Assembly (NCBI GenBank): GCA_025454755.1
Contig: JALONV010000007.1
Span: forward strand, 1-56,848
Direction: 5' to 3'
DNA: 56,848 nt
Origin: Bacteroidales bacterium
GTDB lineage: Bacteria > Bacteroidota > Bacteroidia > Bacteroidales > VadinHA17
In this document: positions 7,270-34,447 of the stretch, in pieces
Layout of the letters: each line of letters begins with the position of its first letter
Position numbering within the stretch: position 1 is the stretch's first letter
Position numbers and translations under genes: made by a program
Notes under the pieces: model-generated
Databases searched by the model: none
What the model saw: only the letters and a program-made list of their open reading frames with translations
Told to the model about the DNA's origin: nothing

Positions 7270-7866
7270 CTATTTTTTCTCGGTCTGGTATTTTTGATTA
7301 AGAGCATCGAGCACCTTCTGAGTTATGTCAAGACCTGTGTCGCCATACAGAACGACGCTTCCGAAACTCCTGCCCAGGATATACTGGTAGTTGTACTGAG
7401 ATTTGTTCTCTTCAAGATAAGTTGTGATATAATCTACAATCTGTCTGTTCATAACCTGTTCTTCTTCCATAAGGTTATTCTGAAGGTTCTGGCTTAGAGC
7501 TGCAAGTTCCTGCTGCTGCTGGTATAGAGCCTGTTCCATTTCGGCAGCCTGAGCCCTGGTAACCAGGCCTTTATTTACTTTCTCCTGAGCATCCGCGGCA
7601 CTTCTTTTCAGTTGATTCTCCTTCGAGGTATATTCAGCCTCAGCCTTCTTTTGTTTTTCCATAAGATCTGCTCTTCTGTCGAAGAACATATCGAAATTAT
7701 AGATTACAGTATCGATATTTATAAAAGCAATTCCCTCCGACTTAATTTCGGTCTGGCTAATATTCCTGGTCGATTTTTTATCTTTTTTGCCTGTAAAATG
7801 CAGAAAATATAGAAATGCAACTGCAAGAAATAACACAGCAAATAGTGCAATGGAAAGTTTCTTCAT
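7270..7866 (-). CDS. OmpH/Skp-like protein with N-terminal membrane anchor
   Basis: A 198-residue protein. Residues 5-24 form a hydrophobic helix with no clear signal peptidase site, followed by a basic stretch (GKKDKK) and a region beginning IAFINIDTVIYNF, which resembles the start of Skp/OmpH chaperones. Residues 65-135 form a long Gln/Glu/Ala-rich coiled coil, and the C-terminal strand region (YQYILGRSFGSVVLYGDTGLDIT) also fits OmpH. It is probably tethered to the inner membrane facing the periplasm. Two further OmpH paralogues follow bamA near 30 kb; this one is separate, just upstream of the glycosyltransferase. Confidence 0.75.
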   Translation of the reverse strand: MKKLSIALFAVLFLAVAFLYFLHFTGKKDKKSTRNISQTEIKSEGIAFINIDTVIYNFDMFFDRRADLMEKQKKAEAEYTSKENQLKRSAADAQEKVNKGLVTRAQAAEMEQALYQQQQELAALSQNLQNNLMEEEQVMNRQIVDYITTYLEENKSQYNYQYILGRSFGSVVLYGDTGLDITQKVLDALNQKYQTEKK

Positions 7867-7940
7867 TTCAGATTAGATATTTGTTAAACAATTGTCAGCC
7901 GCAAATATACGGAATAAAATTTAACGGTAAAAGATGTAAT

Positions 7941-8933
7941 TTAGAATTCGGGACAAGGGATTGCCCTTATACGTTTCCTGCCAGTACTGATAGAGAACGA
8001 TGTGAATTCATATACAAGCGATATTTCATGTGCACCGCCTGTATTTGCCAACAGGTTGGATATTGTAAAATCGTAGCTGTAACCGATATGCAGCTGACTT
8101 GTCTTTATGCCTACGAGCCCTATAATTGCATCGCCTGCCTGATTGGTAAGGAAAGGGATACCTCTGTACCATAATCCGAAAATAAGCGGATCTCTGTAAT
8201 AATAGAGTCCTATATCAGCTTGATTAAACTTTGACTGTGTCTGGTAATTTACCGCTACCGACAGCACCTCTCTCAGCTTGGTCCTCAGTCTTGTTTTCTT
8301 ATATAGCTGTACACCGCCGTAAAGGTTAAACTTGACCGGGACTTTTGCATCGTCACCATAGAAAGATGTCTTTGGAACGAGCAAATGATCGAGTGTAAAA
8401 CCGCCCCAGATCCTGTCGTTATACACGAGTGCGGAAGCTGCGAAGTCTACATCTGCGACGCTTTCGAACGGAGGAGGATAAATTGAAGGCATTGTGCCGC
8501 TTCCCGAGAGCTGGCTGTTGAAGACCAGTTTATAAATATCAAGCCCCAGGTAATAGAATTTGAAGTTAACCCCAGGCCTGATATGCCACTCTTTAGTTAT
8601 GTTGAAATCGTATGAATAAAGGATTCCTATATTGGTAGTACTGAGGTTACCTGATCCAGCAACGTCGTAAGTGGCAAGAACCCCGATTCCTGAATTGAAA
8701 TTTGGCATTGCCATGTCAAATGAAACACTATAGGTATGAAAAATGGCTTTGGGTATAGAGGGCCACTGATTCCTGTAATTCAGGCCAAGCCTGTACTGCT
8801 CGGTTGCTCCAGCAAATGATGGTGAAAGATAGAGTGGATTTGCATAGAACTGGGAGAATGTAGGATCCTGACTATAACAATCTACATAAAAAATAAAAGC
8901 CAGCAGAAAAATATATTTGATCCTTTTCAGCAA
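7941..8933 (-). CDS. PorP/SprF-family type IX secretion outer membrane protein
   Basis: A 330-residue protein with a signal peptide (cleavage likely near residue 21), then the family hallmark QDPTFSQFYANPLYLSPSFAGA and repeated amphipathic beta strands ending in an aromatic-rich C-terminus. PorP/SprF proteins are outer membrane barrels; in Flavobacterium SprF is needed for secretion of the SprB adhesin. Many Bacteroidetes genomes pair such genes with cargo bearing a type B sorting domain, and here such a gene lies just upstream on the same strand (9128-10453). The intervening 194 bases hold a small inverted repeat (8982-9005) but no convincing terminator. Confidence 0.92.
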   Translation of the reverse strand: MLKRIKYIFLLAFIFYVDCYSQDPTFSQFYANPLYLSPSFAGATEQYRLGLNYRNQWPSIPKAIFHTYSVSFDMAMPNFNSGIGVLATYDVAGSGNLSTTNIGILYSYDFNITKEWHIRPGVNFKFYYLGLDIYKLVFNSQLSGSGTMPSIYPPPFESVADVDFAASALVYNDRIWGGFTLDHLLVPKTSFYGDDAKVPVKFNLYGGVQLYKKTRLRTKLREVLSVAVNYQTQSKFNQADIGLYYYRDPLIFGLWYRGIPFLTNQAGDAIIGLVGIKTSQLHIGYSYDFTISNLLANTGGAHEISLVYEFTSFSISTGRKRIRAIPCPEF

Positions 8934-17996: not shown

Positions 17997-18881
17997 ATGA
18001 TGAGAGCCTATATATTCCCCGGGCAGGGTGCTCAGTTTGCCGGTATGGGCAAAGACATATATGAGAAGTATCCTATAGCCAAAGAGATGTTCGAAAAGGC
18101 AAATTCAATTCTCGGATTCAGGATCACCGACCTGATGTTTTCAGGCACCGACGAAGACCTTAAGCAGACAAAAGTGACACAACCTGCAATTTTTATTCAT
18201 TCTACAATACTTGCTGCAGTACTTGGAGAAAACTTTAAGCCGGAAATGGTGGCTGGCCACTCACTGGGCGAATTTTCAGCGCTGGTTGCAAATAAAACTC
18301 TTTCCTTTGAAGATGGACTATTGCTTGTCTCGAAAAGAGCAATGGCCATGCAAAAAGCCTGCGAGAAGACTCCCTCGACAATGGCCGCTATAATCGGCGC
18401 AGAGGACAAAGTTGTTGAAGAAGTTTGCGAATCAATCAGTGAGGTAGTGGTTCCGGCTAACTATAATAGTCCGGGACAGATTGTCATTTCAGGCTCGAAT
18501 GAAGGTATCGACAAAGCCATCGAAGCACTGAAGAATAAGGGTGTGAAAAGAGCAATTAAACTTGCAGTTGGCGGCGCATTCCATTCACCGTTGATGGAAC
18601 CGGCACGCATCGAACTCGAGGAAGCCATTAGATCAACCCATTTCAGCCAACCTGTATGCCCTGTATATCAGAATTTTAATGCAAAGCCTTCTTCAGATCC
18701 TGAGACTATAAAGGCCAATCTTGTTGCCCAGCTTACCTCACCTGTCAGATGGACACAGAGCGTTATTAATATGATCACCGATGGTGCAACATTGTTCACT
18801 GAAGTAGGTCCTGGTACCGTGCTTCAGGGACTCGTAAAAAAGATAAATTCCAGCGTAACTACAGAAGGTGTGGTTCTTTAG
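17997..18881 (+). CDS. fabD: Malonyl-CoA:ACP transacylase
   Basis: A 294-residue FabD that loads malonyl groups on acyl carrier protein for fatty acid synthesis. The GQGAQFAGMGKD oxyanion loop is at residues 9-20, the nucleophile S89 in GHSLGEFSAL, the malonate-binding Arg in SKRAMAMQ, and the catalytic H196 in GGAFHSPLM. Length is standard. A second ATG three bases downstream of 17997 could equally be the start. It stands alone, 51 bases after folE and convergent with the large protein gene downstream. Confidence 0.95.
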   Translation: MMRAYIFPGQGAQFAGMGKDIYEKYPIAKEMFEKANSILGFRITDLMFSGTDEDLKQTKVTQPAIFIHSTILAAVLGENFKPEMVAGHSLGEFSALVANKTLSFEDGLLLVSKRAMAMQKACEKTPSTMAAIIGAEDKVVEEVCESISEVVVPANYNSPGQIVISGSNEGIDKAIEALKNKGVKRAIKLAVGGAFHSPLMEPARIELEEAIRSTHFSQPVCPVYQNFNAKPSSDPETIKANLVAQLTSPVRWTQSVINMITDGATLFTEVGPGTVLQGLVKKINSSVTTEGVVL

Positions 18882-18929: not shown

Positions 18930-21902
18930 TTATACCGGTTTCATAATTGCGCCTTTATGGCGTTTGCCGTCAACCAGTATTTCAAGTGGTTTATTGAAAT
19001 GAACGTGCCGGACGACACTATCTTCGTAGACAACATTCATCCGGTTCAGGTAATCAACATCATAGAAGCCTTCGTTGATATACGGGTTTATTGTGAAATA
19101 TCCGACTCTGAATGAAGTAAGGTTCTGGAAAAAATGTGTTCCCTGGCTCGGATCGATCCTGTAATTCTTCAAACCTGATTCAATGATTATCCTTGCTGCA
19201 GAGATCTGCGGCCATTTAACCGGGATTCCCAGCCAGGGATCGGTTGAGCCCCAGCGGCCCGGTCCAATAAGAACATATCCGGCACTCTGCTTCATGAACT
19301 TTGAATTTAGATTCTCGATGATGGCAACAGTATCTTTATTTTGCGCCGCATTGAAAGAATCAGGCTTCACATAGACAATATCGTAGATGCCTTTAAATAT
19401 TCCATGGCCAAGAGCAGATTCTGAAAAGATTATCGTTTGTTCTTTCTTTATATTATCGAGATTGATATTATAGGTTTCATCCGAATGTACTATAGGTCTG
19501 ATCTGCAGGAAATTGAATATTTTCGGAGTTCCTGCAGGTGTCTCAAGGTTTGCAGCAAACTCGATCTCGATGGGATTATTCATTTCCCTTTGTCCGAGAT
19601 CCAGGAGAGTTGTAAGTATTTCTGCAAGAGGGAATGATTTATGCTGAAGGATATTCGAAAATGTAATTACGCGCTTTCCCTGTGAAGATATCCCGTCGCG
19701 CAAAATATTGTTCACATGATCATATGTCGATGCCAGGGACTTCATAGCACCGTCGTTATTTGCATCCTTAATATCTATTCTGGGGATGTTAACGCCATCG
19801 TCGGTTGAAGGCACAAAACTGTCGATGTTGAGGTCCAGTGCACGGAACTCTTTCTGTGTATCGCGCAGAGCTCCTTCCGGTGAAGAGAGCTGAAGTATCT
19901 TTTTTGGTATCCTTGGACAGAAACGCAGCGACATTCCACCCTCCACTATAAGCTTGCCCAGTCCGAATGCTACATTGGCGATTCCATCTTCTGCCTTCTC
20001 AGAACCAATGGGATAGTAATTTATAGATCGTGCAACACCTGAAAAAGTCGGATAGAAAATATTGCCATGCCTGTTGCCGCATACTTCCTGCAGGATGATG
20101 CCCATCTTCTCTTCGTCGATTACGTTTGCAGTTGCTGTCATGTATGCCTTGCTGGCCTTATAATACACCGATGCATAAACCTCCTTGATGGCATCAGACA
20201 ATGCCTTGACCATAAGTTTATTATCGGCCAGCCTGGGGATCATGTAGGTTGAATACACCCCTGCAAATGGCTGATAATGTGAATCTTCCAGCTTACTTGA
20301 AGATCTTACCGCAACAGGGTGATTACGCGACACGGCAAGGTATGCATAAAAGTCCTGGTATACCCTTCCAGGCAGTTCGGCATTGATGAACCTGTTGAGG
20401 ATCTCATCGTCAGAAAGGTCTGAGAGGGCAACTGAATACAGGTTATTATGGTCCATGAACTCGTCAAAAATATCGGTGCTCAGGACGACAGTTCTGGGAA
20501 TAGTGATCAGAACATCAGGGAACCTGTTAAAGAGTTTGTTATTCTTGATGATCCTGTTTATGAATGCCAGGCCTCTTGCCTTGCCACCAATTGATCCTTC
20601 TCCTATCCTGGAGAAAGTCTGGTACTCATCAAAACTTGTCTTGTCGAACTTGGCTATTACGCCTCTTCCTTTACCAAGACGGAATGATGAGATGGCAACA
20701 TAAAGAAACCGTCTCATCTCATCCATGGTTTCGAAATCTTCTTTGCGGATATACTTAAACATCTGTGCCACAGGGAAGAGCGCCCTCGCATTAAGCCACT
20801 TTGAAAAGTGGTTGCGGGTTGCATGATACTCAAGTGTATTATCAGGTATCGTGAGCAGTTTCTGCTGAAGGCTCTGAAGGTCGGTGGCAATTGCTATCGG
20901 CTCGAGAGTATCAGGATTCTTAAAAACGAAAGGACCGAAAGCAAGGTTCTGTATGATGAAATTACGCAGCTCGAGTGACAGCGACTTTGAATATTTATGA
21001 ATAAAGCCTGCTCCCATTTCCTCGGCTTTGCGCTTATGGTCAAGATTTGAAGACTGAAGCAGGAAAGGCACTTTGTCGTCGTCGGCCATAACAACCTTGC
21101 ACAACTCAAAGCCTGCATTCTCGTCGGGAACGCCATCGCGCTTATAACTGATATCGGAAATAATGCCGAGAACATTGTACTTGTACTTAATATACAGGTC
21201 GATGGCATCGTTGAAATTGTTTGCCAGCAGGATCTTGGGACGACCTCTCATTTTCAGCATCCGCTGGTGTTCGTTAAGCGCCTCACGCTGAAAATCGAGT
21301 GACTGGAGAAGAACTATCCTGTAAATATTAGGCAGGTAAGATGAAATGTACCTTATTGAATTTTCAACAAGGATGATTGCCTGAACTCCGACCTGTTCAA
21401 TATCGTGCTCTGCATTCATCTTATCCTCGATAAGCTTAATAATTGCCAGGATAAGAGCTGCATCACCCAGCCAGCAGAATATGTAGTCAATTGCGCTCAG
21501 ATCTTCACCCTCGAGTCTCAGCGATACTTCACGCGAAAAATATGTAAGTACAACGATAGGGATGTGTAAATATTTCTCCCTGATCTTTTTGGCCATGGCA
21601 AAAACATCTGTCCCTTTAAGGCTGAGCATTGAAATTACAAGGTCTACATTCCCTGCGCTGAGTATTTTAAATGCATCATCGGCATTATCGGTCTGAACAA
21701 ATATCGGCGGGTATCTCAGGTTAAGGGAGACATATTCATTGAAGATCTGTTCGTCAATTCTTCCATCCTCTTCAAGCATGTAATTATCATAATTACTGCA
21801 TATTACAAGTACACGATGGATCCTCTTCTGCATAAGAAGGTCGAATGACGTATCAGTAAAATCATATTTCTGCAAATCGAGTATCCCGTCAATTATTGTC
21901 AT
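18930..21902 (-). CDS. Receiver-like plus PPDK_N ATP-grasp protein (990 residues)
   Basis: Residues 28-160 are a degenerate receiver-like domain lacking a phosphorylatable Asp (VDLVISMLSLKG). Residues 172-310 look like a second receiver with E180, D250 (IISDIS), S285-type residues (LLQSSN) and K303 conserved. From about residue 430 comes the ATP-binding domain of PEP synthase/pyruvate phosphate dikinase: GSIGGKARGLAFI, PVAVRSSSKLED near 532, and ILQEVCGNRHG. The swivelling His domain and the PEP barrel are absent. A C-terminal block (LIGPGRWGSTDPWLGIPV ... GTHFFQN) is shared with the paralogue 11 bases upstream. Known Bacteroidetes homologues carry a PEP/pyruvate-binding label; the reaction is unknown. 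Confidence 0.85.
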   Translation of the reverse strand: MTIIDGILDLQKYDFTDTSFDLLMQKRIHRVLVICSNYDNYMLEEDGRIDEQIFNEYVSLNLRYPPIFVQTDNADDAFKILSAGNVDLVISMLSLKGTDVFAMAKKIREKYLHIPIVVLTYFSREVSLRLEGEDLSAIDYIFCWLGDAALILAIIKLIEDKMNAEHDIEQVGVQAIILVENSIRYISSYLPNIYRIVLLQSLDFQREALNEHQRMLKMRGRPKILLANNFNDAIDLYIKYKYNVLGIISDISYKRDGVPDENAGFELCKVVMADDDKVPFLLQSSNLDHKRKAEEMGAGFIHKYSKSLSLELRNFIIQNLAFGPFVFKNPDTLEPIAIATDLQSLQQKLLTIPDNTLEYHATRNHFSKWLNARALFPVAQMFKYIRKEDFETMDEMRRFLYVAISSFRLGKGRGVIAKFDKTSFDEYQTFSRIGEGSIGGKARGLAFINRIIKNNKLFNRFPDVLITIPRTVVLSTDIFDEFMDHNNLYSVALSDLSDDEILNRFINAELPGRVYQDFYAYLAVSRNHPVAVRSSSKLEDSHYQPFAGVYSTYMIPRLADNKLMVKALSDAIKEVYASVYYKASKAYMTATANVIDEEKMGIILQEVCGNRHGNIFYPTFSGVARSINYYPIGSEKAEDGIANVAFGLGKLIVEGGMSLRFCPRIPKKILQLSSPEGALRDTQKEFRALDLNIDSFVPSTDDGVNIPRIDIKDANNDGAMKSLASTYDHVNNILRDGISSQGKRVITFSNILQHKSFPLAEILTTLLDLGQREMNNPIEIEFAANLETPAGTPKIFNFLQIRPIVHSDETYNINLDNIKKEQTIIFSESALGHGIFKGIYDIVYVKPDSFNAAQNKDTVAIIENLNSKFMKQSAGYVLIGPGRWGSTDPWLGIPVKWPQISAARIIIESGLKNYRIDPSQGTHFFQNLTSFRVGYFTINPYINEGFYDVDYLNRMNVVYEDSVVRHVHFNKPLEILVDGKRHKGAIMKPV

Positions 21903-21913
21903 GTTCCCTTTGT

Positions 21914-24900
21914 TTACTGATTCATGGTGATAACAGCTATTCCTTTCTTACCGTCCATTCTGATAAGAAGCGGCTTTTCAAAACTGATGTGCCTGAAATA
22001 GTTACCCTGCTCGATAACACTCTGCCGGTCAATTTTCTCCCAGTTTATTTTTCCGTTATGGGCGCCCACGTTTATTGAAAAATATCCGACGTTCATAGAA
22101 GTTACATTGTGGAAGAAGTGGGACCCCAATGAGGCGTCGAGCTGGAAATCGGGAAGGTCTATTTCTACAATTACTCTCGCATTTGAGATCTGCGGCCAGA
22201 CAACTGGTATGCCGAGGAATCTGTCTTTCGTACCCCATCGTCCTGGGCCGATCAGGATATATTTTTTGTTCTCTTTCAGCATCTTTTCATTTATCCTGTC
22301 TATTTCATCAGCCATTTGTATGGTGCGGAGATTATCGAATTTATCAGGTTCGATATATATTATGTCGCACACATCGTCTATAACCCCATTGCCCATTGCT
22401 TTAACCGATTCCAGCAAAAGATCATCATGGTTTACTGATTCCGCATCGATATCATATCCCGCACCGCTTCCCACCAGTGGTTTTATCTGTAAAAGGTAAA
22501 ATGAAGCATTGCCGTCTTTATCCTTTGTAAGATCTACGGCAAATTCTATTTCCGAAGGATTTCCTGTGGCTTCGGTTACTACATCAAGAATTGTTCTTAA
22601 TGTCGTGGCCAGTGGTATATGATTGTATTTCAGTATGTCTGCAAAATTTATAACCCTCGGACCAGGTGCATCAAGTCCGGGTATTATCGTATCATTGTCC
22701 GGATTAAGGACCGATGCGGAATGTTTCAGGGTGCCATGTTCTTCGGCCGCACTTATATCAAGTGTCACCAGTCCGGCATTCTCCCCTTCCAGGAGGTTAA
22801 GATTCTTCTTGTTCAGATCGACAGCATAGAAATAAACCTGAGAATTCCTGTAAAGGTCGTGATGAGAAATTATGTCGAGTGCCGGATATGAGGGAGAGAA
22901 CCTGAAGGCTCTTTCACCTTCAACCACATAATGTCCAAGACCAACAGCCATCACCGCAACGCCGTCCTGGGGAGTCATGTGGGCAACAGGGTAGAAGTTG
23001 AATGACTGTGCAGTGCCGCTGATATGAGGATAGAAGACTTCTCCGAATCTGTTACCCACCACCTCCTGAATTACTATAGCCATCTTCTCCAATTCTATCT
23101 TGTAATTGATAGCCTCAAAATAAGTACGGGCGCTGCGTGAATAAATTGAAGAGAATACGAGCTTGATGGCTTCTGAAAGCTGTCGCAGTCTCATCTCGAA
23201 GTCGGGATGGTTGTTAGGAAGCAGGTAGGTGCCAAAGATTCCCGAAAAGGGCTGACTCAATGAATCTTCGAACAAGCTTGAAGATCTTACTGCAAGAGGT
23301 TTTTCAACATGCCTGAGATAGATCCTTAGTTCCTTTTCCAGCGTGTAGCTGAGACTTCCTTCAAGAAAAAGTCGCTGCAGAGCGTCATAGTCCTTTTCTT
23401 CCTTGACGCTTTCCCACAGATGGTTGCGTTCCATGAACATGTCGAATTCATCGGTACCTATTATTGCAGTGATCGGGGCTTTGATATTAATCCCCGGAAG
23501 CAGCCTCCCCAGCTCAAAGCTGTAGATCAAGGTATTGATAAATGCAAGGCCTCTCCCCTTTCCGCCCAGCGAACCACCTGCCAGGCTCACCACATTCGTT
23601 TCATCAATGACGGCGGATTCTTCAAAATTAACAACCCGACCTTTATTTGCCTCCTTACGGCGCTTGCGGATAATATCAATCAGAAATTCTCTTAGTTCTT
23701 TGAGAGAATTAAAATCCGATACTTTTATCGGGTTTATGAGTTTGGCTATCTTAACCTCTCCCCTGGCCATGAGCCACAGGGAGAAATGGTTTTTCATTGC
23801 ATGATAAGCCAGTGAATCCTCCGGCACTGTTTCGAGATAAGCTTCAAACTCTTTCATCGACTTTGCCACAGCTATCTGGCGGCCTTTAGTGTCCCTGTAT
23901 ACAAAATGACCGAAACCAAGATAGTAGTTGATAAATGATTTAAGGTCCTGGAGCAGGCTCTCTGAGTTTTTGTTGATGAAGTTTGACTTAAGCGTATATG
24001 CAAATTTTGCATTTTCCGGATCAGAAGACTGAAGGACAGTCGGAAGGTTTGGTAATTCCTTCTTAATATGCTGGATAAGCTCAAACCCGGCAGTCTCATG
24101 AAGTGATCCGTTCATCGGGAACCGCATATCGGAAATGACACAAAGAATACTTTCCTTGTACTTATTATATATTGTAATGGCATCCTCCCAGTTTGAAGCA
24201 AGCAGTATTTTGGGTCTTGCCCTGAGTTTTAATACTTTATAGAGTTCGTCGGTTGAAACATCCTCAATCAGGCTTCTTGTCTGCTCCATAACAAGTGTGT
24301 AAAGCATCGGAAGGTAGCTCGAATAATATTCGGCGGAGTCTTCAACGATCAGTATTACCCTGGTAAGGCCTTTCTTTGTATCGTTATCGACATTTACTTT
24401 ATCTTCCAGGAGTTTAACCATTGCAAAGAAAACTTTCGATTCGCCGGTCCATACGAAATAGTTATCGAAAGGCACATCCATGCTTTTCTGTTTTATTACG
24501 AAAGGCACATCTCCCGGATTATTCAGAAGCAGGAATGTTGGCAGATAAGGATATTTGTCTTTGATCTTTCTACACAAGACCATGGGGCTCTCCTTATGGA
24601 CTCCGATCATGATAATTACCATATCGTAATGCCTGGCCTTCAGCCTGTTAAAAGCTTCATCCTCGCTTGATACCCCTGTTACTCTTGGCAATGATGTAAG
24701 GCTGAGCTGGTGATACTCACCAAGCATAAGGTCAGAAAACCTTCCTTCGCCTTCAATTGAATAGGCATCATAAAGGTTTGCTACCAGAAGGATCTCCTTA
24801 ACCTTGAATGGCTGGAGATCGTGAAAAACATCGCGCTCGGCATTATGACGTTCGAGGAACTTCTGAAGCAGTTTTCTGCTGGAGACATTTTTCGGGTCCT

Positions 24901-25372
24901 CATCTTCTTCCTTTATTGCCTTCGACATACGGATAATGTCGCGGGCTTTATAACTGTTGATGTACCCGGTAAGAAGGCTTGCAATATTACGGATGAGGTC
25001 CCGCTCCTCCTTCAGGAAAGGTCCTTCACTCTCCATACTGAACTCCCTGGTATAATAAATTTCGATTGTCCCCTTCTCGTTATCGATGGTATCAAAATCC
25101 TGGATCATTTTCCAGGTAGTCTCCTTAAAATCAGGCGTTTCAAATGATTTATCACAGAATCTTATCCTCGCTTCAGTAAATTCAGGATATTGCCATGCAG
25201 AAGGCAGTAAGAGGACAATCTGCTGGAGAGTCTCTTCAATTGGTTTTCCTTCTTTTAGAATATAGGTAGTCTGATTGATACAGGATAATTCCTTCACCCT
25301 CTCCTGCTGATCGTGAAGCAGACGGTTATATTCAGGCGGGATATGGTTATTTTCATCCATTGAAAGGAACAT
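21914..25372 (-). CDS. GAF-like, receiver-like and PPDK_N ATP-grasp protein (1152 residues)
   Basis: Larger paralogue of the 990-residue protein. Residues 20-145 resemble a GAF sensor domain (LQQIVLLLPSAWQYPEFTEARI ... ERDLIRNIASLL). Residues 190-325 are a degenerate receiver without the Asp. Residues 336-490 look like an intact receiver: E344/D345, D415 (VISDMRFP), S449/S450 and K468. The ATP-grasp part starts near 598 (GGSLGGKGRGLAFI), with AVRSSSLFEDS near 695-704 and LLQIKPL near 961 in place of the usual LQxRP. The unique C-terminal block (LIGPGRWGTKDRFLGIPV) follows. An alternative ATG is 12 bases inside. No His domain or PEP barrel is present, so it is not an ordinary PEP synthase. Probably coexpressed with its neighbour. 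Confidence 0.85.
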   Translation of the reverse strand: MFLSMDENNHIPPEYNRLLHDQQERVKELSCINQTTYILKEGKPIEETLQQIVLLLPSAWQYPEFTEARIRFCDKSFETPDFKETTWKMIQDFDTIDNEKGTIEIYYTREFSMESEGPFLKEERDLIRNIASLLTGYINSYKARDIIRMSKAIKEEDEDPKNVSSRKLLQKFLERHNAERDVFHDLQPFKVKEILLVANLYDAYSIEGEGRFSDLMLGEYHQLSLTSLPRVTGVSSEDEAFNRLKARHYDMVIIMIGVHKESPMVLCRKIKDKYPYLPTFLLLNNPGDVPFVIKQKSMDVPFDNYFVWTGESKVFFAMVKLLEDKVNVDNDTKKGLTRVILIVEDSAEYYSSYLPMLYTLVMEQTRSLIEDVSTDELYKVLKLRARPKILLASNWEDAITIYNKYKESILCVISDMRFPMNGSLHETAGFELIQHIKKELPNLPTVLQSSDPENAKFAYTLKSNFINKNSESLLQDLKSFINYYLGFGHFVYRDTKGRQIAVAKSMKEFEAYLETVPEDSLAYHAMKNHFSLWLMARGEVKIAKLINPIKVSDFNSLKELREFLIDIIRKRRKEANKGRVVNFEESAVIDETNVVSLAGGSLGGKGRGLAFINTLIYSFELGRLLPGINIKAPITAIIGTDEFDMFMERNHLWESVKEEKDYDALQRLFLEGSLSYTLEKELRIYLRHVEKPLAVRSSSLFEDSLSQPFSGIFGTYLLPNNHPDFEMRLRQLSEAIKLVFSSIYSRSARTYFEAINYKIELEKMAIVIQEVVGNRFGEVFYPHISGTAQSFNFYPVAHMTPQDGVAVMAVGLGHYVVEGERAFRFSPSYPALDIISHHDLYRNSQVYFYAVDLNKKNLNLLEGENAGLVTLDISAAEEHGTLKHSASVLNPDNDTIIPGLDAPGPRVINFADILKYNHIPLATTLRTILDVVTEATGNPSEIEFAVDLTKDKDGNASFYLLQIKPLVGSGAGYDIDAESVNHDDLLLESVKAMGNGVIDDVCDIIYIEPDKFDNLRTIQMADEIDRINEKMLKENKKYILIGPGRWGTKDRFLGIPVVWPQISNARVIVEIDLPDFQLDASLGSHFFHNVTSMNVGYFSINVGAHNGKINWEKIDRQSVIEQGNYFRHISFEKPLLIRMDGKKGIAVITMNQ

Positions 25373-25414: not shown

Positions 25415-25540
25415 ACCCCCCGCCACGCAAAAGCGTGGCTGCCCCCCTAAAGGGGAGCTAAAAACTGGTTAAAATATAAGAACCGAGTTGGTTTTAGCCC
25501 CCCTTCAGGGGGGCGTACCGCGAAGCGGGACGGGGGGTTA
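25415..25540. repeat. Large imperfect palindrome abutting korB
   Basis: Several nested stems lie in about 125 bases: CCACGC-AAAA-GCGTGG at 25423-25438, a CCCCCCTAAAGGGG stem at about 25442-25455, outer arms GCTAAAA (from 25457) and TTTTAGC (to about 25498), then a C6-TTCA-G6 type stem near 25498-25513 and CCGCGAAGCGG near 25518-25528. The right end runs into the stop codon of korB (25538-25540). It is related to the repeat at 16683-16813. Confidence 0.8.
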
Positions 25541-26560
25541 TTCCACTTTCCACACTGAACCGCTGTTCAGCAGATCATCCATGCATTTTATTTTAGCCCC
25601 CTTCTGAATTCCCATTATCTGCTCCTCAACATCAGTATCATATGTTTTACCTTCCACTGAACGGATAACACCCAGCGCAACAGGATAATCGGGATATCTC
25701 ATATTTGCAAGCATGTATTGAATACCGGGATTAGCTTCCTGTGCGTCATGTACAAGAAGATTTTTCCCGGATATGCCGTTTTCACCCAGTTTAACTACCT
25801 TGAGTTTAAGGCCATCAAGCACCAGTCCCTTTTCATTCTCTTTTCCGAAGATCATCGGTTGTCCATGCTTAAGAATAATGGTCCTGTCGTCCCTTACTTC
25901 ACGGCCTGCCACTTTATCATGTATGCCGTCATTGAAGATCACGCAGTTTTGCAGTACTTCGACTACTGATGTTCCCTTATGTTTTGCGGCTTCAACATAG
26001 ATCTGGGTTGAAAGTGCAACATTGGCGTCAATAGTTCGTGCGAAGAATTTACCTTTTGCGCCAATTACCAGTTCACCAACTGAGAATGGCTCCTCGACAG
26101 TCCCGAATGGTGATGTTTTTGTCATGAGACCTTTTTCGGAAGTCGGTGAATACTGGCCTTTTGTAAGGCCGTATATTTCATTATTGAACAAAAGAATATT
26201 AATATCAATATTGCGCCGGATCGCATGAATGAAATGATTACCACCTATTGCCAGTGCATCGCCGTCGCCGGTTATATCCCACACTGAGAGTTCCGGGTTT
26301 GCTGTCTTGACGCCGGTAGCTATTGCGGCAGCTCGTCCATGTATGCCATGAAACCCGTAGGTATCCATATAATAAGGGAATCTCGATGAACATCCGATTC
26401 CGGAAATAAACGCAAACTTTTCCTTCGGTATGCCAAGTTCTGTAAGCGCTTTCTGAACGGCATTCAGCACTGCATGGTCACCGCAGCCCGGGCACCATCT
26501 CACCTCCTGGTCACTCTTGAAATCTTTAGGAGTGTATTGAAAATTCTTTAGTTCTGCCAT
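25538..26560 (-). CDS. korB: 2-oxoacid:ferredoxin oxidoreductase, beta subunit
   Basis: A 340-residue thiamine-diphosphate-binding subunit. It has cluster cysteines in RWCPGCGDH and GIGCSSR and the TPP/Mg motif GDGDALAIGGNHFIHAIRRN followed by LLFNNEIYGLTKGQ. With KorA it oxidises a 2-oxoacid (probably 2-oxoglutarate) to the acyl-CoA, reducing ferredoxin. The gene starts one base after korA ends. The last 70 residues form the C-terminal tail typical of KorB. 2-oxoglutarate is favoured by the KorAB two-gene layout, but related 2-oxoacids are possible. Confidence 0.92.
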   Translation of the reverse strand: MAELKNFQYTPKDFKSDQEVRWCPGCGDHAVLNAVQKALTELGIPKEKFAFISGIGCSSRFPYYMDTYGFHGIHGRAAAIATGVKTANPELSVWDITGDGDALAIGGNHFIHAIRRNIDINILLFNNEIYGLTKGQYSPTSEKGLMTKTSPFGTVEEPFSVGELVIGAKGKFFARTIDANVALSTQIYVEAAKHKGTSVVEVLQNCVIFNDGIHDKVAGREVRDDRTIILKHGQPMIFGKENEKGLVLDGLKLKVVKLGENGISGKNLLVHDAQEANPGIQYMLANMRYPDYPVALGVIRSVEGKTYDTDVEEQIMGIQKGAKIKCMDDLLNSGSVWKVE

Positions 26561-30493: not shown

Positions 30494-33013
30494 TTAAAAT
30501 TGTTGACCTATTACAAAGTGAAATTGTGAGTGATTTGCGCCGGATTCGCCTGTCATCACATCATCAAATCCATAACCCCAGTCTATCCCCAGGAGACCGA
30601 ACATCGGGAGATTTGCTCTAAGCCCTAAACCAGCAGAGCGGGGCATCTTGAAGGGATTAAATTCATTGAGTTTATACCAGGCTCTTCCTGATTCAAGGAA
30701 GGCGAGTCCGTATATTGTTGCCTGCTGATTAAGCGATATAGGATACCTGAGTTCAAAAGTCAGCTTTGAATAAACGTTACCTGCCGACGATCTTGAAGTG
30801 GCATCGGTTGGAGTAAGCGATCCGTTAGTATAACCCCTGAGGGCGATCACTTCCCGTCCGTAGAAGCTGTATCCTGTCATGCCATCGCCGCCAACATAAA
30901 AGTTCTCGAATGGTGAAGGGCCTATATCCTTGTTGTAGTAGCCGAGATAACCGAATCCAAAGCGGACATTCAGAATAAGCTTGTCATTCTTGGATACCGG
31001 GAAATAATAATCTGCCTTGAATGTCCATTTGTGGAATTCGATCCATTTGTATCTTTCATCCGCTTTCATTTCAGGATCGGACATATCTTTTCCACTTATA
31101 GAGCTATAAGGAGGAGTTGCCTGTATTGAAAAAGTGAATGATGATCCGCTTCTCGGGTAGATAAGGTTGGGACTTGTGGAGAACCGTGTAAGCTTAAGGT
31201 TCAGACTCAGGAGATTAGATTGACCTTCAGTAAAGAGAAAACTCTGCAAATAAGAGTAATTATTAAGGTCGTATTTTGAATAGGACAGTTCACCGTAAAT
31301 TGAGAAATAATCGTCCGGCCACTGAAGTCTCTTGCCAAGTCCTAATGACACTCCGTCAATAATCATAGAATTGTAGTTCTCAGCCGTCTTCTTGCTGCCA
31401 TTAGTCATGATCGACCTGTAAAGTGAAACTGAGAATGTATTGTTTTTCTTTCCGCCCAGCCAGGGTTCTACAAATGAGATATTATAAGACTGATAAACTC
31501 GTCCGTTCGATTGTGCCCTTATGCTTAATGACTGGCCGTCACCTGAAGGATAGGGTCTCCATTCATTAAGCTTAAAGAAGTTACGCATGGCGAAATTATT
31601 GAACCTTACCCCCACAGAACCTACCAGCATGCCTGCTCCCCAGCCTCCCGAAATTTCGAACTGGTCGTTAGCTTTCTCTTCAAGCTGATAGAGCAGATCC
31701 ACTGTCCCGTTAGTCTGGTCCTGCATTGGAGTAGGATTAATTTTCTCAGGATCAAAATGACCAAGCACACCAAGCTGACGGATAGACCTTATAATCTTTT
31801 CCTTGCTGAAAAGGTCGCCAGGGAGAGTATAGAGTTCCCTTCTGGCAACATGTTCATTTGTACGTGTATTGCCGGTTATAAATATGTCGTTTATATAGGC
31901 CTGGTCGCCCTCGAATATCCTGATCTCCAGATCGATAGAATCACCTTCAACCTTTGCCTCAACAGGATTAAGATTGGAGAACAGATATCCGTGATCGAGG
32001 TAAAGATTGCTTACAGCATCTTCAGCTCCGCTGCTGCCATTAAGCCTGTCGAGAATGAGCGACTGATTATAGACTGATCCCTTCTTAACATTGAATACCC
32101 TGTCGAGATCCTCTTTCAGGTAAACACTGTTGCCTACCCATTTTACATCTCTGAGGAAATACTGATTGCCTTCCTCTATCCTTAAAAGAATTCCAACACG
32201 GTCTTCGGAAATGTTGTACATCGAGTCGGAGAAGATCGTGAAATCCCTGAATCCGTTGTCATTATAGAATGTCGTCAGTTTATCCTTATCCTCCTCATAT
32301 TTTTCGGCGATATATTTTGAAGCCTTGAAGAAATTAATGTTCTTCTCCTTTGTTCCCTTCAGCTGACGACGGAGTTTTCCTTCCTTGTAACTTTCATTGC
32401 CAATGAAAGTCAACTCGCCTATTTTAACCTTCTCTTTCTTATCGATATTGATATAAAGGATAATATTATTAGGCTGGTCAGGATCATCTTTCTGAATAAA
32501 TTCAACAGTTGTGTTCAGAAATCCCTTTTCAATATAATGGTCGCGTATTATCTTCTGGGTGTTATTCAGAATATAGGAAGTTACCTGGGAGCCTATGGGA
32601 AGATTTATCTTTTCATTAAGATCCTGAGATTCGGAATCTCTTATCCCATTGAGTTTGACTGCAGAGATCCTTGGTCTTTCCTGAAGAAAAATATCGAGAA
32701 AAACAGTATCGGAATTTATTGAGACTATAGACATCCTGACATCAGAAAAGAGTCCCTGCTGCCATAATCTCTGAACAGCTCTGGTGACATGGTCGCCTGG
32801 AATCGTAACTTCCTGCCCTACTCTCAATCCTGAAATTCCGATAAGCGCATTGACATCCAGGTACCTTACGCCTGATATGGAAACACCTCCGATAATATAA
32901 TCTCCCTCATTTGAAAAATCGTAAATTTCCTGTGGTTGCTGGCCGCTGATTGAAATAGATCCCCATACCAGAAAAAGTACAGCAATAATCCTATTTAATA
33001 TTCTTCTCCTCAT
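30494..33013 (-). CDS. bamA: Outer membrane protein assembly factor BamA
   Basis: An 839-residue Omp85 protein: signal peptide (1-24), POTRA repeats (about 36-445), then a 16-strand barrel to the C-terminal Phe. Barrel marks include the ALRGYTNGS loop, the counterpart of the VRGF/Y motif on L6, and the final ...FVIGQQF strand, which fits a Bam signature with a terminal aromatic residue. BamA inserts beta-barrel proteins in the outer membrane, including the many barrels coded nearby. It lies seven bases after uppS and 22 before the first ompH gene, in one operon. Confidence 0.95.
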   Translation of the reverse strand: MRRRILNRIIAVLFLVWGSISISGQQPQEIYDFSNEGDYIIGGVSISGVRYLDVNALIGISGLRVGQEVTIPGDHVTRAVQRLWQQGLFSDVRMSIVSINSDTVFLDIFLQERPRISAVKLNGIRDSESQDLNEKINLPIGSQVTSYILNNTQKIIRDHYIEKGFLNTTVEFIQKDDPDQPNNIILYINIDKKEKVKIGELTFIGNESYKEGKLRRQLKGTKEKNINFFKASKYIAEKYEEDKDKLTTFYNDNGFRDFTIFSDSMYNISEDRVGILLRIEEGNQYFLRDVKWVGNSVYLKEDLDRVFNVKKGSVYNQSLILDRLNGSSGAEDAVSNLYLDHGYLFSNLNPVEAKVEGDSIDLEIRIFEGDQAYINDIFITGNTRTNEHVARRELYTLPGDLFSKEKIIRSIRQLGVLGHFDPEKINPTPMQDQTNGTVDLLYQLEEKANDQFEISGGWGAGMLVGSVGVRFNNFAMRNFFKLNEWRPYPSGDGQSLSIRAQSNGRVYQSYNISFVEPWLGGKKNNTFSVSLYRSIMTNGSKKTAENYNSMIIDGVSLGLGKRLQWPDDYFSIYGELSYSKYDLNNYSYLQSFLFTEGQSNLLSLNLKLTRFSTSPNLIYPRSGSSFTFSIQATPPYSSISGKDMSDPEMKADERYKWIEFHKWTFKADYYFPVSKNDKLILNVRFGFGYLGYYNKDIGPSPFENFYVGGDGMTGYSFYGREVIALRGYTNGSLTPTDATSRSSAGNVYSKLTFELRYPISLNQQATIYGLAFLESGRAWYKLNEFNPFKMPRSAGLGLRANLPMFGLLGIDWGYGFDDVMTGESGANHSQFHFVIGQQF

Positions 33014-33769: not shown

Positions 33770-34447
33770 CTATCGCTTTCTTTTTCCATCCACATCCTCA
33801 TAAGCCGGACAGCCAGCCAGCTTATTATAAATCTTCCAGGTAAAAGCTATACCTGCAAATGAATACCAGTCATTATTATGGAGCCAGCCGTAATCAGCCT
33901 GAGCAACCATATCTTTCAGGCCGTCAAAGTTATCATAAAAAGTCTTACGAAAACCATATTCTGCTTCCAGTCCCATATTTTTATAAATATTGACTTTAAT
34001 TCCTCCGGAGAAGGGTATCACAGGCTGGAATGAGAAGGCTGTTGAGTTGATAACTGCAACACCGACTCCTGCCGCAAAATAAGGCGACCAATCCCATAGC
34101 TTCCCTGCAGTGGTATATGGCAGGAAATTAAATTCAAACTGGATTGCCAGTTCTCCCGTAATTCCTGTAAATGAGGCAGCCCTGGTTGTCTGGAATGTGT
34201 TATTGAAATCAAGGTCATTACCTCTCAATCCTCCTGCTAAAATATCAGCCCGGATAGCATGTCGCGGGTGCAGGTTATAGCGATAGAAAAAACCGGCTGC
34301 AGGAAGCGGTGAATACATTAGTCTCGAAGGATTTATGTCACCTATGTATGATGAGACCCCCCCCAGAATACCATAATCGGCATTGCGCTGCCCCGCTGCA
34401 ATAAGAGAAAGGCTTAAAGACAAGAGAATCCAAGGTATTCTTTTCAT
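33770..34447 (-). CDS. Small outer membrane beta-barrel protein (DUF6089-like)
   Basis: A 225-residue exported protein with a signal peptide (1-19), then RNADYGILGGVSSYIGDINPSR, which resembles the family I know as DUF6089, found beside uppS/bamA in Bacteroidetes. The rest alternates polar and aromatic strands (YSPLPAAGFFYRYNL, SPYFAAGVGVAVI, IAFTWKIYNKL), suggesting an eight-stranded barrel. Function unknown. The second barrel gene is 21 bases upstream and the two may be distant paralogues. Confidence 0.78.
   Translation of the reverse strand: MKRIPWILLSLSLSLIAAGQRNADYGILGGVSSYIGDINPSRLMYSPLPAAGFFYRYNLHPRHAIRADILAGGLRGNDLDFNNTFQTTRAASFTGITGELAIQFEFNFLPYTTAGKLWDWSPYFAAGVGVAVINSTAFSFQPVIPFSGGIKVNIYKNMGLEAEYGFRKTFYDNFDGLKDMVAQADYGWLHNNDWYSFAGIAFTWKIYNKLAGCPAYEDVDGKRKR

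Follow-up and report, generated by a model that had tools for sequence, protein, structure and literature searches.

Tandem receiver/ATP-grasp proteins of Bacteroidota with a putative swivel domain and a genomic link to glutamate dehydrogenase

The window, i.e., the whole stretch of DNA that was analysed (56,848 nucleotides of contig JALONV010000007.1, from a genome of the order Bacteroidales), contains two tandem genes, P0001 and P0002. Their products join receiver domains to an ATP-grasp domain of the PPDK_N type and to a C-terminal domain that is probably a divergent swivel domain, and related genes in Bacteroidota often lie beside a gene for glutamate dehydrogenase (GDH). The two open reading frames (ORFs), which the first-pass annotation had taken for paralogues of 990 and 1152 residues, were confirmed. 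The proteins share 36% identity across 975 columns, and they are conserved, as the C-terminal domain was found in 103 of the 119 sampled genomes and 97 of the 109 genera of the window's order. The two genes and their parts are the following:

18930..21902, minus strand: P0001 (class A), ORF of 990 amino acids, with the order degenerate receiver, receiver, helical linker, PPDK_N ATP-grasp domain, swivel-like domain
21408..21824, minus strand: first receiver of P0001, residues ~27-165, acceptor Asp absent, invariant Y38, D39 and F142
20928..21389, minus strand: second receiver of P0001, residues 172-325, canonical site E180/D250/S284/K303
21153..21155, minus strand: codon of D250, the acceptor Asp of this receiver, present in 79/79 rows
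19467..20621, minus strand: PPDK_N ATP-grasp domain of P0001, residues 428-812, K441, R533, E781 and Q800 invariant
18933..19466, minus strand: swivel-like C-terminal domain of P0001, residues 813-990, motifs GPGRWG and SxG[ST]HFF
19134..19136, minus strand: codon of H923, the candidate phospho-accepting His, present in 238/238 unique sequences
21914..25372, minus strand: P0002 (class B), ORF of 1152 amino acids, 11 bp upstream of P0001, with the order GAF-like sensor, degenerate receiver, receiver, DUF5752-like linker, PPDK_N ATP-grasp domain, swivel-like domain
24878..25372, minus strand: GAF-like N-terminal sensor of P0002, residues 1-165, common to class D proteins
21917..22447, minus strand: swivel-like C-terminal domain of P0002, residues 976-1152

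The ATP-grasp domain recognized in the first pass is well supported, with PPDK_N scores of 118.8 bits in P0001 and 120.2 bits in P0002 (Pfam cut-off 27). A profile alignment to PEP (phosphoenolpyruvate) synthase, with a probability of 99.4%, pairs the same ATP-grasp motifs and extends to residue 857, so that it continues beyond the ATP-grasp domain, covers the first swivel strands and then stops. The ATP-site residues K441, R533, E539, D540, E781 and Q800 are invariant in 93/93 members of the alignment used for modelling. A larger set of cores comprised 268 rows, of which 7 short ones were omitted, and the remaining 261 contained 238 unique sequences, many of them close relatives; R533, S534, S535, E539, D540, E781 and Q800 are invariant in all 238, and K441 in all 219 that are long enough to cover its position. 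The loss of the ATP site across homologues, which had been named as a possible objection to an active enzyme, is thus rejected.

The barrel that binds PEP and pyruvate in PEP synthase is missing, as the first-pass annotation had stated. Pfam found only PPDK_N, receivers and DUF5752 (25.3 bits in P0002, cut-off 23), and the chain ends directly after the swivel-like domain. In a public Parabacteroides record a relative is annotated as 'PEP/pyruvate-binding domain-containing protein', and together with the genuine PPDK_N domain this would fit an ordinary PEP synthase or PPDK. Such an assignment can practically be dismissed, because the barrel is absent, the best NCBIfam model for PEP synthase scores 50.6 bits where 883 is required, no GDH gene was found near 30 loci of ordinary PPDK or PEP synthase, and the genome (97.8% complete) encodes a separate, ordinary PPDK away from the P0001/P0002 operon. 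A separate His/PEP-binding protein that would complete an ordinary enzyme had also been considered; the single match to PF00391 in the genome lies inside the ordinary PPDK, and no such partner was seen.

The first-pass annotation had further claimed that the swivelling His of PEP synthase is missing, and this claim is probably wrong. The conservation of the C-terminal domain is well above chance: G882-G885 (GRWG), E908, S919, G921, H923, F924 and F925 are invariant in 238/238 unique cores. The AlphaFold2 model of P0001, based on 93 family sequences, has a pLDDT (predicted local distance difference test) of 89.0 and a pTM (predicted template modelling score) of 0.82, and the model of residues 813-990 alone (178 residues) has values of 94.6 and 0.91. 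The best matches of the full model in VIA-align are RPH structures (Z 26.2 and 26.0), and it also aligns with PEP synthase 2ols (Z 25.7, 4.0 Å, 358 residues, chain 4-467) and with PPDK 1dik (Z 18.0, 4.8 Å, 350 residues, chain 6-510). The spans of the latter two alignments show that the swivel region is covered and that the domains are in their native order. With the C-terminal model alone, rows 1-13 of the result are all chains with swivel-type domains (Z 5.6-6.9), namely RPH, PPDK, Enzyme I, EI-Ntr and one pyruvate kinase with an extra C-terminal domain, which we take to be swivel-like. Examples are RPH 5fbu (Z 6.9, 3.3 Å over 112), PPDK 5jvn (Z 6.8, 3.3 Å over 116) and Enzyme I 5woy (Z 5.9, 3.0 Å over 106); the absence of a family from such VIA lists does not exclude it.

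The position of H923 is in agreement with a swivel domain. It opens helix 923-930 in the full model and stands second in the same helix in the domain model, and this helix sits between strands 903-909 and 934-939, presumably the place of the phospho-His in the PPDK fold. A global profile alignment had equated GPGRWG...LGIPV with GGRTSHAAI..ELGIPAV of the swivel domain. This pairing is rejected, since the succession of secondary-structure elements in the model puts H923, and not the GPGRWG...LGIPV loop, at the phospho-His place; the mapping uses the general order of elements in the PPDK fold rather than superposed coordinates. We infer that H923 occupies the phospho-His position, and with moderate confidence the C-terminal block is probably a divergent phosphohistidine swivel domain.

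Several results weigh against this assignment. The Z-scores of the swivel matches are below 8, a range in which chance arrangements are common, Foldseek with the C-terminal domain returned no match at E <= 0.001, PF00391 (PEP-utilizers) gave no match to it at E values up to 10, and a profile comparison restricted to the swivel domain yielded a probability of 0.1%. The pLDDT blocks at residues 911-930, which include H923, are low (68 and 74 in the full model, 83 and 89 in the domain model). Furthermore, the usual motif that precedes the phospho-His is T/SxxGGxxxH (PMC12167813), and this motif is absent from the C-terminal domain, which has SxG[ST]H in its place. Searches of the PDB with the C-terminal profile gave no convincing relative, and a PDB sequence search with P0001 returned receivers and a weak match to the ATP domain of RPH/PEP synthase (E 0.72). 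The block might instead be a new acceptor or ligase domain in which H923 serves as a general acid/base. The modest Z-scores, the Foldseek result, a motif unlike the swivel sequences collected here and the lack of a clear counterpart of GPGRWG...LGIPV would fit such a domain, which we nevertheless consider rather unlikely: all of the first 13 VIA rows belong to the swivel-type group of PPDK, RPH, Enzyme I and pyruvate kinase, the block is in the native position after the ATP-grasp domain, and the profile alignment to PEP synthase reaches the first swivel strands.

The N-terminal parts of the proteins point to signalling. The first receiver of P0001 is recognized by Response_reg (33.5 bits for residues 69-142, cut-off 30.2) and was rightly called degenerate: in the family alignment no conserved Asp was found at positions 91-94, the acceptor site at the end of strand 3, and Y38 and D39 are invariant in the 79/79 receiver-bearing rows. 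The second receiver had been described as intact, and E180, D250, S284 and K303 are indeed each present in 79/79 of these rows, D181 in 75/79. It matches known receiver structures with a Z of 14.4 (VIA-align), its counterpart in P0002 scores 21.9 bits with Response_reg, below the cut-off of 30.2, and D415 of P0002 is aligned to D250. P0001 itself is one of the 4 rows with N181 in place of Asp, and this may weaken its receiver, a point against phosphorylation-dependent gating. The sensor of P0002 was found to be a real domain, because phmmer relates the N-terminal region of P0002 to that of class D, with E values from 6.6e-25 to 7.6e-16 for the six proteins compared; Pfam gave no family above cut-off for the first 166 residues, and the label 'GAF-like' was assigned by eye.

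The family is widespread in Bacteroidota, the phylum that was sampled from GTDB. P0001 is matched in 54 of 60 relatives, 14 of the 16 genomes of the order that lack the C-terminal domain are smaller than 3 Mb, and a scan of contigs yielded at least 592 relatives, with Bacteroides, Parabacteroides, Phocaeicola, Prevotella and Lutibacter among the matches listed. In plasmid searches for relatives beyond Bacteroidota only one short match, from Fusobacteriota, was obtained. The core with the ATP-grasp and C-terminal domains occurs in several architectures. Class A is P0001-like, and class B is P0002-like with one to several GAF-like repeats, identified by eye, and a length of up to 1550 amino acids (L044). 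Class C, from the draw of genomes across the phylum, is a receiver-less core of about 580 amino acids. Class D, from the same draw and mostly about 1060 amino acids long, starts with a GAF-like domain, followed by a helical segment and the core, and ends in a nucleotidyltransferase-like region. Among five class D/E proteins submitted to Pfam, two matched NTP_transf_2 (L165, 22.7 bits, and L180, 30.1 bits; cut-off 21), and a GS...DID motif is seen by eye in the class D protein of L166. A single core combined with several inputs is typical of an output module.

A further variant is encoded in a genome of the same genus (L053:4294-6927), where a core protein of 878 amino acids carries an N-terminus that looks by eye like RecA/KaiC in place of the receivers; Pfam gave no match for this N-terminus. 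At 11 loci (L165-L174 and L183, for example L166:8024-11215) a class D gene directly follows a gene for a receiver-less core, GDH directly precedes this pair in 9 of the 11, and genes that look by eye like histidine biosynthesis or metallophosphoesterase genes often come after class D.

A catalogue of neighbours had been proposed, and GDH recurs in it: after the family itself, GDH is the commonest cluster of neighbouring ORFs (84 loci). It is the immediate neighbour of 77/185 family genes (class A 51/120, B 11/32, C 9/12, D/E 6/21), a count that omits fragments, ORFs below 100 amino acids and loci with short flanks and that scores genes at contig ends as having no GDH, and in which some genomes are represented in two draws, for example G289, which is apparently the same genome as L111. 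GDH lies upstream or downstream, on the same or on the opposite strand. The phylum draw comprised 247 genomes, of which 75 match the core, many of them only as ordinary PEP synthase or PPDK; a strong match (core at E < 1e-80) was found in 41 genomes besides the window's own. In 33 of these 41, GDH is an immediate neighbour (31/38, plus G125 and G199 but not G073), and within the set of 38 genomes the adjacency extends over 27/33 genera and 10/11 family codes, while the second most frequent neighbour is found in 10 genomes. Within a span of 9 kb, GDH was present at 33/40 family loci of the phylum draw and at 10/30 of the draw of relatives. By comparison, no GDH was found in 30 control loci of 8.4-11 kb, which were 20 PPDK loci from the draw of relatives and 10 PEP synthase loci from the phylum draw. 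A FastTree tree was built from 190 cores; among the 169 that were scored, at least 27 changes of adjacency are needed, a count made without a shuffled comparison. Five GDHs were typed, four of them adjacent to family genes; of these four, two fit two different NCBIfam models of NADP-GDH and two best match archaeal GdhA, below cut-off. The linkage to GDH thus exceeds chance and spans several arrangements.

Other observations limit the weight of the linkage. Two thirds of the controls (20/30) come from the draw of relatives, in which the family itself is linked to GDH at only 10/30 loci. GDH adjacency is missing in 8 of the 41 strongly matching genomes from across the phylum, GDH was seen at only 10/26 order-level loci, and it was not found at three class A/B loci of the same genus with long flanks (L049, L050 and L054). 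In the window's genome both GDH copies are on another contig, away from the operon. Moreover, gene linkage is a sign of a shared pathway and not proof that GDH is the phospho-acceptor. On that contig (C40), the first GDH copy (L264:4783-6068) is split across two reading frames, the second (7544-8884, 446 amino acids) is intact, and a gene that looks by eye like dprA lies between them.

GDH adjacency would also be expected if the ATP-grasp/swivel pair were a non-catalytic ATP sensor that binds the nucleotide and transmits its change of shape to GDH by direct binding, without phosphotransfer. The fusion of one core to inputs as varied as GAF-like domains and receivers, and to the nucleotidyltransferase-like region of class D, would be in agreement with such a sensor. 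Yet some drift would be expected in a pure sensor, and neither the ATP-site residues nor the candidate His vary, so that we regard this explanation as quite improbable.

In the window's genus, the operon of P0001 and P0002 follows two genes for a 2-oxoacid oxidoreductase:

25538..26560, minus strand: korB-like gene, 2-oxoacid:ferredoxin oxidoreductase beta subunit, 165 bp upstream of P0002
26562..28406, minus strand: korA-like gene, 2-oxoacid:acceptor oxidoreductase alpha subunit

The order korA-korB-class B-class A recurs in other genomes, and at loci such as L025, L029, L061, L064, L069 and L086 it is found in one cluster with GDH. If this korAB encodes the 2-oxoglutarate enzyme, its product and GDH would meet at 2-oxoglutarate. 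In addition, L187, L188 and L195 each have a gene for a PAS-HisKA_3 histidine kinase next to the class A gene, and this kinase is a plausible phosphodonor of the second receiver. In these three clusters of GDH, class A and kinase genes the GDH-class A unit is present twice.

Taken together, we propose that P0001 and P0002 are signal-gated ATP-to-His phosphotransferases, members of the PPDK/PEP synthase superfamily without a substrate barrel, which act on a partner at the 2-oxoglutarate/glutamate node; we give this proposal a probability of roughly 0.4. The ATP-grasp domain would bind ATP and phosphorylate the His of the swivel domain, i.e., H923 in P0001 and H1085 in P0002. The reaction would be gated by the two N-terminal receivers, and in P0002 also by the GAF-like sensor, and the second receiver would be phosphorylated at D250 or D415 by a histidine kinase whose gene lies elsewhere. 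As neither protein carries an acceptor domain, the phosphate would be handed on to a distinct partner. For this role gene linkage most favours GDH, or something that acts on GDH, and it makes GDH a testable candidate for the acceptor. In this way the system might adjust the flux at the 2-oxoglutarate/glutamate node, either in ammonia assimilation or in glutamate catabolism. The computation shows the domain order, the invariant ATP-site and receiver residues, a confident model of the C-terminal domain with swivel domains as its best matches, the invariant His at a helix start and the recurrent linkage to GDH and korAB; phosphorylation of H923, gating by the receivers, GDH as the target and the direction of control are what we infer. 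The earlier suggestion of a signal-controlled, ATP-dependent phosphotransfer remains the best reading, while its premise that a phosphotransfer His domain is lacking probably does not hold.

Alternatively, the proteins could be small-molecule dikinases, in which the ATP-grasp and C-terminal domains would act together on a metabolite of the glutamate/2-oxoglutarate node, phosphorylating or ligating it, with the acceptor bound in a pocket of GPGRWG, E908 and H923 and the receivers acting only as regulators. RPH (PMC4844700) and HpeHI (PMC12167813) act on small molecules, and the C-terminal domain has many invariant residues beyond the His, such as R883, W884 and E908. We consider this unlikely, since the fusion to receivers and a sensor points to signalling rather than metabolism and since RPH, PPDK, PEP synthase and HpeHI have a dedicated acceptor domain, of which none is left here. 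By their domain anatomy, P0001 and P0002 appear to have all parts of an ATP-to-His half-reaction but no domain that could serve as acceptor.

GDH is a major route by which ammonia nitrogen enters and leaves metabolism, and Bacteroidota are prominent among the bacteria of the gut. The phosphotransfer proposal suggests a control of nitrogen metabolism in Bacteroidota that has not been described. The component domains are known; no description of the family, of the domain combination or of the link to GDH was found in the titles and abstracts listed by searches of the open-licence PMC literature, and as far as these show, the combination and the link appear to be new. If control of GDH by ATP-to-His phosphotransfer is true, a signalling enzyme would have been built from a metabolic dikinase, and the question of how such bacteria switch ammonia assimilation becomes directly testable in gut Bacteroides. 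A bolder and rather doubtful extension is that the family forms a separate signalling branch of ATP-grasp/swivel 'histidine kinases' unrelated to HisKA/HATPase, in which the His would be charged from ATP under receiver or GAF control and the phosphate passed to GDH, possibly also to the protein's own receiver Asp in a His-to-Asp relay in cis, as nitrogen control of Bacteroidota. Within this extension, the pairing of class D, with its nucleotidyltransferase-like region, with a receiver-less core and GDH would suggest successive phosphorylation and nucleotidylation steps centred on GDH.

The remaining neighbourhood of the operon is in keeping with a Bacteroidota genome, in that a gene for the type IX secretion protein PorG (33770-34447, NCBIfam 166.5 bits) and a gene for an Omp85/POTRA protein (30494-33013) are nearby. 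On the other side, fabD (17997-18881) lies downstream of the P0001/P0002 pair and faces it. An anti-phage system listed in PADLOC was considered and rejected, as there was no match at E <= 0.1.

Compared with known systems, the family is most similar to PEP synthase (PpsA) and PPDK, with which it shares a PPDK_N ATP-grasp domain followed by a swivel-like domain, here divergent, and invariant ATP-site residues. It differs from them in that it has no barrel, carries two receivers in front and is often encoded beside GDH; in addition, the motif GG[RM]T[SC]H of these enzymes is replaced by SxG[ST]HFF. RPH and the two-component dikinases HpeHI, CreHI and PpsAB are examples of the recruitment of ATP-grasp and swivel chemistry to a new acceptor, and the RPH structures at the top of the full-length matches are tied with PEP synthase. 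In RPH, ATP charges His825 of the swivel domain, and this domain then travels across to the one that holds the acceptor (PMC4844700), and in HpeHI the ATP-grasp domain is a separate protein (PMC12167813). RPH has a RIF-binding domain between the ATP-grasp and swivel domains, whereas in P0001 the swivel-like domain follows directly after the ATP-grasp domain, and in contrast to RPH and these dikinases the present family has signalling inputs and no small-molecule acceptor domain. Enzyme I of the PTS, which was retrieved with its swivel domain (5woy), shares the idea that a His phosphate is handed to a separate protein, but it takes the phosphate from PEP, while the proposed donor here would be ATP. 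Lastly, the second receiver has the full canonical site of two-component receivers, from which the family differs in having an ATP-grasp/swivel-like enzyme as its output.

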